In this document: positions 28,128 to 46,249 of the stretch, piece by piece
Layout of the letters: each line of letters opens with the position of its first letter
Position numbering within the stretch: position 1 is the stretch's first letter
Assembly (NCBI GenBank): GCA_902601785.1
Contig: CACKOH010000006.1
Span: 1-64,000, forward strand
DNA length: 64,000 nt
Source of the DNA: an uncultured Pelagibacteraceae bacterium
GTDB lineage: Bacteria > Pseudomonadota > Alphaproteobacteria > Pelagibacterales > Pelagibacteraceae
Direction of reading: 5' to 3'
Made by a program: the position numbers and the translations under genes
Notes under the pieces: generated by a model
Database searches by the model: none
Seen by the model: the letters and a program-made list of their open reading frames with translations, nothing else
What the model was told of the DNA's origin: nothing

Positions 28128-28538
28128 ATGTCAGAAACAATCGAGCAAAAATGTTTATCTAAAGGGGTTAAATTAACTGATCAAAGAAAAATAATTGCCC
28201 AAGTTATGTCCGAGTCATCTGATCACCCGGATGTAGATGAATTATATAACAGAGTTTCTAAAATTGATTCAAAAATTAGTATTGCTACAGTTTATAGGAC
28301 AGTAAAACTATTTGAAGAGTCTGGAATTTTAACAAAGCACGAGTTTAAAGGTGGAAAAGCTAGATATGAAGAGTTGAACGAAGGACATCACGACCATTTA
28401 ATTGATGTAAAATCTGGTGAGATTATAGAATTTGTTGATGAAGAAATTGAGAAACTTCAAAAAAAGGTTGCAGAAAAATATGGCTATACCCTCGTAGATC
28501 ATAAATTAGAACTTTATGGGGTTAAAAAAAAATCCTAA
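28128..28538 (+). CDS. fur: Fur-family transcriptional regulator
   Basis: KLTDQRKIIAQVM, ISIATVYRTVKLFEESG, HHDHLI. Confidence 0.92.
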   Translation: MSETIEQKCLSKGVKLTDQRKIIAQVMSESSDHPDVDELYNRVSKIDSKISIATVYRTVKLFEESGILTKHEFKGGKARYEELNEGHHDHLIDVKSGEIIEFVDEEIEKLQKKVAEKYGYTLVDHKLELYGVKKKS

Positions 28539-41503: not shown

Positions 41504-42715
41504 TTATATCTTCTCGAAAATTAAAGCAGCATTGGTTCCACCAAAACCAAAACTATTAGACATTACTGTATTTAAAGTTGCTCCTGTCTCCGTTTTAGCA
41601 ACTATTGGAAATTTTTTAGCCTCATCATCCATTTCATTAATATTAGCAGATCCTGCTATAAAATTATTTTTCATCATAATCAAACAATAGATCGCTTCAT
41701 GAACGGATGCTGCTCCTAAAGGATGACCCGACAAAGATTTTGTTGAACTTATTTTTGGAATTTCATTTCCAAAAGCTTCTTTCACGGCATTTAATTCTGT
41801 AATGTCTCCAACTGGAGTAGATGTTCCATGAGTATTGATATAATCAATTTTATTTTTTGATGTTGCCATAGCCATCTTCATACATCTCACAGCGCCTTCT
41901 CCTGAAGGAGCCACCATATCGTATCCATCTGAAGTTGCTCCATAACCGGTTAATTCCGCATATATTTTAGCCCCTCTTGCTTTAGCATGTTCGTATTCTT
42001 CTAGCACTAACACCCCACCACCACCAGCAATTACAAAACCATCTCTAGTTCTATCATATGCTCTTGATGCGGTCTCTGGTGTATCATTATATTTTGAAGA
42101 TAAGGCTGTCATGGCATCAAACATTGCAGTCATCGCCCAGTGTATCTCTTCACTACCTCCTGCAAAAACAACGTCTTGTTTTCCCATTTGAATTAATTCC
42201 ATTGAGTTTCCAATACAGTGACCACTTGTTGCACAAGCAGAACTCATGGTGTAATTCGTACCTTTAATTTTAAATGGAACAGCAAGTGTAGCTGATGCTG
42301 TACTGGCCATTGTTCTTGGAACGATGAATGGTCCCATTAATTTTGGAGTTTTAGCTCTAGTTTTGTCTGCTGCTAAAATAACATTTTCAATTGATGGACC
42401 ACCCGAACCCATAACTATTCCTGTTTTAAAGTTACTAACTTCACTTTCCTCTAATCCAGAGTCTTCGATTGCTTCTTTCATTGCTATGTAGTTGTAAGCA
42501 GAACCTGAACCCATGAATCTTATTGTTTTTCTATCAATATGGTCCTCAAGCTTTATGTTTGGTTTACCATGTACATGACTTTTTAAATTATGTTCTTTGT
42601 ATTCCTCACTAAAAGATATTCCAGATTTTGTTTTTAATAGCGATTGATGTACTTCTTCTTGATTATTACCCAAGCATGAAACAACGCCTAGACCTGTAAT
42701 TACTACTCTTCTCAT
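41504..42715 (-). CDS. fabB: Beta-ketoacyl-ACP synthase
   Basis: [27 protein letters not shown] active site, [26 protein letters not shown]. Confidence 0.96.
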
Positions 42716-43215
42716 TATTTAAATAATCCTACTTTTAAACTATCTGCTGAATATATCTTTTTATTATCTGCAAAAACTACTCCATTAGCAAGACCAACAG
42801 TTGTGCCTCCTGGCGACATAATTTTTTTCATATCTATTTCATACCTTACATTTTTTACACTTTGTAAAACTTCACCAGTAAATTTTACTGCTCCAACACC
42901 TAGTGCTCTACCTTTGCCAGGATTTCCTAACCAACCTAGGTAAAAACCTACTAGTTGCCACATAGCGTCTAACCCTAAGCAACCAGGCATAACGGGGTCA
43001 GATTTAAAATGACAATCAAAGAACCAAAGATTATCTTTAATATCTAGTTCAGCCTTTAAAGATCCCTTGTTAAAGGTCCCGTTATTGTCGTTAATCTCTG
43101 TTATTCTATCAAACATTAGCATCGGAGGAAGGGGTAATTTAGCATTGCCTGGGCCAAAAAGATCACCATTTCCGCAAGTAATTAGGTCATCATAGCTATA
43201 GGAGTTTTTTTTCAT
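42715..43215 (-). CDS. fabA: 3-hydroxydecanoyl-ACP dehydratase/isomerase
   Basis: [28 protein letters not shown]. Confidence 0.96.
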
Positions 43216-43286: not shown

Positions 43287-43303
43287 TTTAGAATTATTAT
43301 AAA
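43287..43303 (+). promoter_or_regulatory. ICE-like (Irr box) palindrome upstream of irr
   Basis: TTTAGAATTATTATAAA, one mismatch from palindrome TTTAGAA-N3-TTCTAAA; 5 nt before the irr ATG. Confidence 0.55.
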
Positions 43304-43308
43304 GAAAT

Positions 43309-43737
43309 ATGACAAAAAACTTCAATTTTATTGAAAAATTACGAGAAACTGGGCTCAGACCTACAAAACAAAGGGTTAAAATTTGTGAAGTTTTGTTCAA
43401 TAGAGATAAAACTTTTCACTTTACAATTAACGATCTTGTTAAAAAAATATCTGAAGAGCTAAACGAAAAAATATCTCTCGCAACAGTTTATAACACTGTT
43501 CATGCTTTACAAAAAAAGGGATATTTAAAGGAGATATCAATAAACTCAGACAAAAGCTATTTTGATACTAACACAACTGTTCATCACCATTTTTATGATG
43601 AAGATACACATCAATTAATAGACTGTGATGAAAATGAAATAGAAAATGTGAATGTTAAAAATAATATCACTGGAAAAAAAATTAACTCAGTGGAAGTTCT
43701 GGTTAGAGTTGCGAGTGATAATCAAAATCAAAATTAA
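43309..43737 (+). CDS. irr: Irr-type Fur-family regulator
   Basis: LRETGLRPTKQRVKICEVLF, ISLATVYNTVHALQKKGYLKEI, HHHFYDEDTHQLID; divergent from fabA as in other alphaproteobacterial irr loci. Confidence 0.88.
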   Translation: MTKNFNFIEKLRETGLRPTKQRVKICEVLFNRDKTFHFTINDLVKKISEELNEKISLATVYNTVHALQKKGYLKEISINSDKSYFDTNTTVHHHFYDEDTHQLIDCDENEIENVNVKNNITGKKINSVEVLVRVASDNQNQN

Positions 43738-43766: not shown

Positions 43767-43783
43767 ATTATAATTATTCTAAA
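43767..43783 (+). promoter_or_regulatory. ICE-like palindrome upstream of rubrerythrin gene
   Basis: ATTATAATTATTCTAAA; two mismatches from TTTAGAA-N3-TTCTAAA; its reverse complement matches the irr site at 15/17 positions. Confidence 0.5.
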
Positions 43784-43786
43784 CTG

Positions 43787-43814
43787 TTGACAACTATTTT
43801 AGAAGTATTATATC
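43787..43814 (+). promoter_or_regulatory. Putative sigma70 promoter for the rubrerythrin operon
   Basis: TTGACA (43787-43792), 16-bp spacer, TATATC (43809-43814). Confidence 0.55.
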
Positions 43815-43844: not shown

Positions 43845-44261
43845 ATGTCATTAAAAGGAAGTAAAACTGAGGAAAATTTAAAGGAAGCTTTTGCTGGCGA
43901 AAGCCAAGCAAACAGAAGATATCTTTACTTCGCACAAAAGGCTGACATCGAAGGATACAATGATGTAGCTACAGTTTTTAGATCAACTGCTGAAGGTGAG
44001 ACAGGTCACGCACATGGTCATCTAGAGTATTTAGAGGAAGTTGGAGATCCTGGAACTGGTATGCCGATTGGTGAAACTAAAGCAAATTTAGCATCAGCTG
44101 TTCAAGGTGAAACACATGAGTACACTGATATGTATCCAGGTATGGCCAAAACAGCTAGAGAAGAAGGTTTTGAAGAAATTGCTGACTGGTTTGAAACTTT
44201 AGCAAAAGCTGAAAAATCTCATGCTGGTAAATTCCAAAAAACTTTAGAGTCTATTAGCTAA
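43845..44261 (+). CDS. Rubrerythrin-family protein without rubredoxin domain
   Basis: [22 protein letters not shown] and [11 protein letters not shown] ferritin-like di-iron motifs; no C-terminal CxxC rubredoxin module. Confidence 0.93.
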
Positions 44262-44273
44262 TTAATCCGTTTA

Positions 44274-45653
44274 GTGGACATTAATTTGTCCACTAAAAAT
44301 CTAAATAAAAATTCAAAAATTATGAGCAAAGAAGGTAGCTTAGATGCACCAACTAGACATCCAATTGATTTTGAACACCCTGATTTTTTAAATCCTGAAA
44401 AATTAGACTCAGAAATGAGAAGAGTATTTGATATCTGTCATGGTTGCAGAAGATGCTTTAATCTTTGTGACTCTTTTCCAAAGTTATTTGATATGATTGA
44501 TGAGTCTAAAGATGAAGACGTAGAAAGTTTATCCAGTGACCAATTTGCCCCTGTTGTAGATGCATGTACTTTATGTGATATGTGTTTTATGACTAAGTGC
44601 CCATATGTCCCTCCTCACGACTTTGATTTAGATTTTCCTCATTTAATGCTGAGATATAGAACTGCGCAGAAGAAGTTAGGAAAACTACCAAGTGTACCAA
44701 CTCAATTAGCTAAAATTGATAGAAATGCAAAAATTGGGATTATGTTCTCTAAACTTGTAAATTGGGCATCAAATATTAAAAATAAATTTATAAGAAAAAT
44801 TTTAGAATTGATATCTGGGATAGATAAAAGAGTGCAGTTACCAAAATATAACTCAGAGACGTTTTCAAATTTTTTTAAAAAGAATAATAATAAAATTACA
44901 TACGATGCAATCAACAAAGATAGAAAAGTTGTAATATATTCTACATGTTTTGTAAATTTTAACAAAAAAAATACAGGTGTAGCTGCATTAAAAGTTTTAA
45001 AAAAAAATGGTGTGGAAGTTCAAGAAGCTTACCCAGGTTGTTGTGGTATGCCATTCTTAGAACAGGCAGATCTTCCAAAAGTAGTTGAACAAGCCAAAAA
45101 AGTATCAAAAGATTTAATCGAATGGATTGATAAAGGTTACAAAGTAATAACTTTAACAGCAAGCTGTGGCTTGATGTTAAAATTTGAATGGCCTTTGTTA
45201 TTGCCTGATAGTGAAAATGTGAAAAAATTATCTTCAAATGTAATGGATATTGACGAATATGTGGTTGATATCGCTAATAATGAGGGATTGGCTGAAGGAT
45301 TAGAGGAAATTGATGGTGGCGTTACAGTTCACCATGCGTGCCATGCAAGAGCTCAGAACATGGGTATAAAGGCTAGAGATATGTTAAAAAATATTCCTAA
45401 TGTAAAAATCGATGTTGTCGAAAGATGTGCAGGCCACGGTGGAACTTTTGGAGTGATGAAGGAGACACATGACTTAGCAAATAAAGTTGGGAGACCAACA
45501 GCAAGACAAATAAAAAATAAAAATAATAAGTATATGGCATCTGATTGTCCTTTGGCTGGAAAGCATTTAAAACAATTAGAAGTAGATACAAATATTTCTA
45601 ATGATGAGGCACTACACCCTATAGAACTTATGGCAAAAAGTTATAAGTTATAA
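44274..45653 (+). CDS. Heterodisulfide reductase/GlpC-like Fe-S protein
   Basis: CHGCRRCFNLCDSFP and CTLCDMCFMTKCP ferredoxin motifs; CCG-like PGCCGMPF and RCAGHGGTFG. Confidence 0.92.
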   Translation: MDINLSTKNLNKNSKIMSKEGSLDAPTRHPIDFEHPDFLNPEKLDSEMRRVFDICHGCRRCFNLCDSFPKLFDMIDESKDEDVESLSSDQFAPVVDACTLCDMCFMTKCPYVPPHDFDLDFPHLMLRYRTAQKKLGKLPSVPTQLAKIDRNAKIGIMFSKLVNWASNIKNKFIRKILELISGIDKRVQLPKYNSETFSNFFKKNNNKITYDAINKDRKVVIYSTCFVNFNKKNTGVAALKVLKKNGVEVQEAYPGCCGMPFLEQADLPKVVEQAKKVSKDLIEWIDKGYKVITLTASCGLMLKFEWPLLLPDSENVKKLSSNVMDIDEYVVDIANNEGLAEGLEEIDGGVTVHHACHARAQNMGIKARDMLKNIPNVKIDVVERCAGHGGTFGVMKETHDLANKVGRPTARQIKNKNNKYMASDCPLAGKHLKQLEVDTNISNDEALHPIELMAKSYKL

Positions 45654-45655
45654 TT

Positions 45656-46249
45656 ATGCCGAGAGAGAAAAGAGAAATACAAAAATCTGACATAATGCCT
45701 CTAGATGCATATATAAAAGATAGAAAAGAATTAAGAAAAAATATTGTTAATTTTAAAAAAAATCGAAGAGTTGCATTAGGTCCATACGCTACATTCTATT
45801 TTGAAAGTTATGAGACCATGCTCGCACAAGTTCAAGAAATGCTTTACATAGAAAAAGGTGGAGATGAACAGCTGCACGATGAGCTAATTGCATACAATCC
45901 ATTAATTCCAAATGGAAAAGAGTTAACGGCTACCCTTATGTTCGAAATAGATAACCCTATATCTAGAGCAGCTTTTCTAGGCAAGGTTGGGGGAATTGAA
46001 GAAATGGTATTTATGAGGCTAAATGGTGAAACTATTAAAGCTGTTCCTGAAGAGGATGTTGATAGAACTTCTGCTGAAGGTAAAGCTTCTTCAGTTCAAT
46101 TTATACATTTTAATTTTACAGATGAACAAATCCAAAAATTCAAATCAAATGATGTTAATGTTGAACTTGGAATGGATCATAAAGAATATTCTCATATAAC
46201 TAAATTAAGTAAAGAAAATATAGCCTCTTTATCTTCGGATTTTAGTTAA
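45656..46249 (+). CDS. DUF3501-family protein
   Basis: LDAYIKDRKELRKNIVNFKKNRRVALGPYATFYFESYETMLAQVQEMLYIE; follows rubrerythrin and the Fe-S protein. Confidence 0.85.
   Translation: MPREKREIQKSDIMPLDAYIKDRKELRKNIVNFKKNRRVALGPYATFYFESYETMLAQVQEMLYIEKGGDEQLHDELIAYNPLIPNGKELTATLMFEIDNPISRAAFLGKVGGIEEMVFMRLNGETIKAVPEEDVDRTSAEGKASSVQFIHFNFTDEQIQKFKSNDVNVELGMDHKEYSHITKLSKENIASLSSDFS

Follow-up and report, generated by a model that had tools for sequence, protein, structure and literature searches.

A facing pair of candidate Irr operators around the −35 element of the rubrerythrin promoter beside irr in SAR11 bacteria

Control of rubrerythrin-like genes by Irr, through the operator known as ICE or Irr box, is already known. 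The closest described case is mbfA (blr7895) of Rhodobacter sphaeroides and Bradyrhizobium, which the locus reported here resembles in the family of the regulator, the operator sequence, the rubrerythrin-type target and the position of a site near the promoter. In R. sphaeroides, Irr binds at mbfA, a rubrerythrin-like gene, and represses it; deletion of irr raises mbfA expression approximately 8-fold (PMC3413700). In B. japonicum Irr the five metal ligands known from PerR are conserved, and the site activates H2O2 with oxidation of H63 (PMC4700492). The SAR11 locus differs from these systems in that its target is a short soluble rubrerythrin encoded next to irr, whereas MbfA is membrane-bound; in addition, two facing candidate sites bracket the −35 element, the target enzyme appears to have been exchanged between lineages, and Irr lacks the heme motif. 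The PerR regulon of Gram-positive bacteria is also similar, with a Fur-family regulator that has the same five metal ligands and controls peroxide-removing enzymes and itself, but the SAR11 regulator is of the Irr lineage by sequence, has no CxxC zinc motifs and is associated with an ICE operator. The OxyR-controlled katG/ahpC defence shares peroxide-removing targets, although its regulator family is unrelated. The paired layout and the enzyme exchange look new: neither of them, nor a peroxide-centred SAR11 regulon, was found in the accessible literature; Rodionov et al. 2006 may list earlier irr-rbr sites.

We analyzed a window of 64,000 nucleotides from a genome of 1.04 Mb in 33 contigs. Genes that we take, from their translations, to be fabI-, fabB- and fabA-like run leftward; irr and rbr run rightward, and behind them come genes for an Fe-S protein with a CCG domain and for a DUF3501 protein. 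The features used below are as follows.

28146-28463: second Fur-family gene of the window.
42715-43215, minus strand: fabA-like gene (presumed from its translation), divergent from irr and used as a synteny marker.
43287-43303, plus strand: ICE TTTAGAATTATTATAAA of the irr promoter itself, with 5 bp between its end and the start codon of irr.
43309-43737, plus strand: irr, Fur-family iron response regulator of 142 amino acids (Pfam FUR, 2.4e-21; NCBIfam IrrA, 1.3e-38).
43767-43783, minus strand: site 1, an ICE and candidate Irr operator, reading ATTATAATTATTCTAAA on the plus and TTTAGAATAATTATAAT on the minus strand, 3 bp before the −35.
43787-43792, plus strand: −35 hexamer TTGACA of the rbr promoter, seen in the sequence and within a column block strongly conserved in relatives.
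43798-43814, plus strand: site 2, a weaker candidate ICE that faces site 1 and overlaps the −10, reading TTTAGAAGTATTATATC.
43809-43814, plus strand: probable −10 hexamer TATATC, 16 bp from the −35; the transcription start is a prediction.
43845-44261, plus strand: rbr, rubrerythrin-type diiron protein of 138 amino acids (NCBIfam RuberyRbr, 1.8e-40, under the cut-off; Pfam Rubrerythrin, 3.1e-29).
44319-46249, 3′ of rbr: genes for the CCG-domain Fe-S protein and the DUF3501 protein.

A first-pass annotation of this DNA had placed two ICE-like elements at 43767-43783 and 43798-43814 with TTGACA between them, and these positions agree with the sequence. It had further called TTCTAAA (43777-43783) and TTTAGAA (43798-43804) perfect inverted repeats around the −35, which they exactly are. 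Its description of palindromes bracketing the promoter holds for the −35 but not for the promoter as a whole, because site 2 covers the −10. The centers of the two sites lie 31 bp apart, approximately three helical turns, a spacing that fits the dual or cooperative control then suggested. Measured against TTTAGAA-N3-TTCTAAA, site 1 has two mismatches and site 2 three, and the −10 itself forms the outer half of site 2 (ATTATAT or ATTATAAA). The −10 is kept as TATATG or TATAAA in relatives, including those without the TTTAGAA half of site 2.

The plain consensus TTTAGAA-N3-TTCTAAA, scanned across the window with up to three mismatches, gave 42 matches where 41 were expected; with no excess in such AT-rich DNA, a match to the motif is no evidence by itself. 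For the exact facing pair TTCTAAA-N10-20-TTTAGAA the window has a single occurrence against an expectation of 0.13. The best ICE of the window, absent from the first-pass annotation, is the one in irr's own promoter. A family matrix was trained solely on ICEs from irr's own promoter in relatives and applied to the spacer after irr. The two best non-overlapping matrix sites in the irr-rbr spacer are site 1 (21.1 bits) and site 2 (12.3 bits), and among 2000 dinucleotide shuffles of the spacer none reached the score of site 1 and none reached that of site 2 as second-best. Scoring against background, the check proposed at the outset, thus fails with the simple consensus and succeeds with the family matrix, by which the palindrome at the target promoter stands above background. 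The case for these candidate operators is carried by the family-trained matrix and by comparison, rather than by the plain consensus.

For that comparison we gathered 137 irr loci, of which all but a few belong to the genus; the genus loci are related, so that the counts below are not independent, and irr and its target are adjacent, so that a single assembly gap can remove both. The ICE in the irr promoter was present with one to three mismatches in 122 of the 137, and this motif, common to irr's own promoter in nearly all loci, supports the earlier proposal that the neighboring Irr is the probable regulator. A best matrix site with p ≤ 0.01 was found in the spacers of all 73 rbr loci, 47 of 54 katG loci and all four peroxiredoxin loci of the genus, and a second matrix site in 36/73, 29/54 and 4/4, respectively. 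Conservation in orthologous promoters, whose absence the first-pass annotation had named as refuting, was firm for site 1, which in 73 of 73 rbr loci of the genus lies upstream of TTGAC with a gap of exactly 3 bp and recurs at this place in distant Alphaproteobacteria, and partial for site 2, which is recognizable by geometry in 34/73 rbr, 47/55 katG and 4/4 peroxiredoxin loci, and so in about half of the rbr loci. Counted from the start of TTGAC, site 2 begins at 11 bp in 26 rbr and four peroxiredoxin loci, at 10-12 bp in katG loci and at 33-34 bp in one rbr clade. Site-center distances are mostly 31-33 or 54 bp, near three and five turns. The rbr clade with the larger offset (L014, L015, L109-L112, L115 and L118) has site 2 approximately 23 bp further downstream, past the −10, a shift of about two helical turns.

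The uneven record of site 2 bears on a simpler reading, namely that site 1 works alone here, the resemblance of site 2 to an ICE being either what is left of a decaying operator or the chance placement of a −10 after TTTAGAA. The three mismatches, the coincidence of the outer half with the −10 and the loss of the site in sister lineages (it is degraded or lost in the near relatives L002, L037 and L043) would agree with this. However, no shuffle matched the second site, and two other near relatives, L031 and L033, retain TTTAGAA in the same position, L033 with a better core. We therefore regard a solitary site 1 as rather unlikely, albeit worth keeping in mind.

Outside the order we inspected 28 loci, chosen as those with the best-scoring Irr proteins and hence a biased sample, in about 26 of which rbr lies downstream of irr, and the spacer between the two usually contains an ICE. 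In many of these loci, among them L229, L230, L233, L234, L239 and L243, this ICE abuts TTGAC with the same gap of a few bases; L239, for example, reads TTTAGAATTGTTCTAAA-cta-TTGACA, and sites of the perfect TTTAGAA-N3-TTCTAAA type occur in L221 and L239. No second facing site was seen in the distant rbr spacers printed outside the order. Because distant loci share site 1 and not a second facing site, site 1 is probably the ancestral, class-wide operator and site 2 a SAR11 addition. The neighborhood on the other side of irr is conserved too: fabA lies upstream of it in 136/137 order-level loci, as it does in several distant Alphaproteobacteria.

What follows irr varies. Among the 137 loci the next gene is rbr in 76, katG in 56, a redoxin-family peroxiredoxin gene in four and another gene in one, and the operators ahead of katG or the peroxiredoxin gene usually match those ahead of rbr. 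On a tree of Irr, which has few columns and many open forks, the target labels need 10 changes by parsimony, and its starred branches force at least four changes for rbr and at least five for katG, pointing to several independent exchanges of the enzyme. Within the genomes checked the enzymes are mutually exclusive: those with katG or the peroxiredoxin gene after irr have rbr nowhere, and those with rbr have no katG, which was searched for with a protein query. Nor did any genus genome checked, contig ends excepted, carry rbr or katG without irr. In the named-genome set the Fe-S and DUF3501 genes accompany 57 of 59 rbr loci and none of 19 katG loci; thus, the exchange replaces the whole rbr block. 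In G406, a complete genome of the family that lacks irr, katG has no ICE better than four mismatches, which is weak support since this katG is just 58% identical and lies elsewhere in the genome.

The regulator itself has a Fur-family fold and is nearest to the Irr models, its best NCBIfam matches being IrrA (132 bits, cut-off 150) and Irr (2e-35; 122 bits, cut-off 170), and it lies between fabA and rbr as in other Alphaproteobacteria. Its histidine cluster (HHH) is invariant in a 17-row alignment, and the window Irr has all five PerR metal ligands (H37, D85, H91, H93 and D104); cluster and ligands alike are invariant in all 137 order-level loci and 28 class-level proteins. The Cys-Pro heme regulatory motif is absent from the window Irr and from every order-level locus, and CP near the N-terminus was found in one class-level Irr protein; the window Irr is therefore not of the B. 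japonicum heme-motif subtype. Its only cysteines are at positions 26 and 106, and the lack of a CxxC structural zinc motif places it outside the PerR proteins proper. At PerR positions 85 and 104 the second Fur-family protein of the window carries Glu, a Fur-like state at 104. As for the target, the window rubrerythrin has no cysteine and therefore no rubredoxin domain or Fe-S center; a rubrerythrin without rubredoxin needs an electron donor, a role that the CCG-domain Fe-S protein could fill. This cysteine-free rubrerythrin stands against a statement in PMC5069961.

Sequence comparison shows where the candidate sites lie, how they are spaced and conserved, that they occur together with irr and that enzymes are exchanged behind the same operators; from this we infer that Irr binds there, possibly cooperatively, that it represses rather than activates, and that it responds to peroxide and/or iron. 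Our preferred reading, which we hold with fair confidence, is that Irr represses rbr and irr through these predicted operators, occluding the −35 and, where site 2 is present, the −10. One Irr dimer would sit at site 1, centered at about −46 from the predicted start, and another at site 2, centered at about −15; with three turns between them, the two would share one face of the DNA and repress rbr by covering or crowding the −35 and −10. Through the ICE at 43287-43303 Irr would also repress its own gene. Upon loss of DNA binding by Irr, rbr would be transcribed and peroxide removed. Site 2 would have been added in SAR11 and is weak in the present genome. Repression is favored because site 2 overlaps the −10, because fifteen katG loci (L019-L022 and related ones) have lost site 1 and retain site 2 on the −10, and because R. 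sphaeroides Irr represses a rubrerythrin-like gene.

The position of site 1 would also allow Irr to activate rbr from there, with site 2 as a weaker repressing or fine-tuning site, another form of dual control: site 1 lies upstream of the −35 with an invariant 3-bp gap and is more conserved than site 2, and rbr mRNA of Ca. P. ubique increases 1.57-fold under iron limitation (PMC2864753), when classical Irr would be active. We consider activation doubtful, as the katG loci with site 2 alone have it in a repressor position, R. sphaeroides mbfA rises rather than falls without irr, and a Fur-family dimer at site 1 would, from the general footprint size of such proteins, probably extend into the −35. 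That the palindromes serve another regulator, such as the second Fur-family protein encoded in the window, or an RNA hairpin is very improbable: Fur-family operators are often AT-rich, but the motif also occurs in irr's own promoter and tracks irr across the class, site 1 persists without site 2, and a hairpin from the TTCTAAA/TTTAGAA repeat was rejected, the spacer RNA folding no better than shuffles (z = −0.11) and forming no terminator.

Returning to repression by Irr, the 1.57-fold rise of rbr in iron limitation opposes a simple low-iron repressor; R. sphaeroides mbfA responds to iron limitation in the same way (PMC3413700). The main signal may be something other than iron, or Irr may activate from site 1. 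Relief of Irr repression by peroxide is plausible, because the SAR11 Irr keeps the five PerR ligands and has no heme regulatory motif.

To see how far the operator extends, we searched 120 genomes for the exact SAR11 ICE and obtained 86 matches against about 18 for the reversed control; the part of the 86 that was assigned to genes lies at irr, at the gene after irr and at some others. A 1-Cys peroxiredoxin gene has an exact ICE directly upstream in two lineages (L174, L181 and L182), but was rejected as a general target since the ICE is absent from most orthologues. One clade (L164, L166 and L168; L165, L167 and L169) has exact ICEs before genes resembling those for a TRAP-transporter DctP and a sugar-ABC binding protein. 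When one mismatch was allowed, matches in five genomes were about as numerous as in the reversed control and mostly within ORFs, so that this search yields no reliable wider regulon. We tentatively propose, while holding it somewhat less probable than not, that the SAR11 Irr has become a peroxide-stress regulator, free of the heme motif and carrying an iron site like that of PerR, and that its small regulon consists of a replaceable rbr/katG/peroxiredoxin cassette behind a conserved double operator.

SAR11 cells live at picomolar iron and are exposed to photochemically formed peroxide. An established regulator of their peroxide defence was not found in the accessible literature, and a search for OxyR in seven SAR11 genomes gave only weak, generic LysR matches of 40-60 bits, the family cut-off being reached in just one control genome. 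Irr is the sole regulator tied here to SAR11 peroxide-defence genes by operator evidence. Since the operator has been kept while the enzyme was exchanged several times, what is under selection seems to be the control logic and not any one enzyme, and the paired operators lead to a prediction on the response of SAR11 genes to iron and peroxide that can be tested directly.
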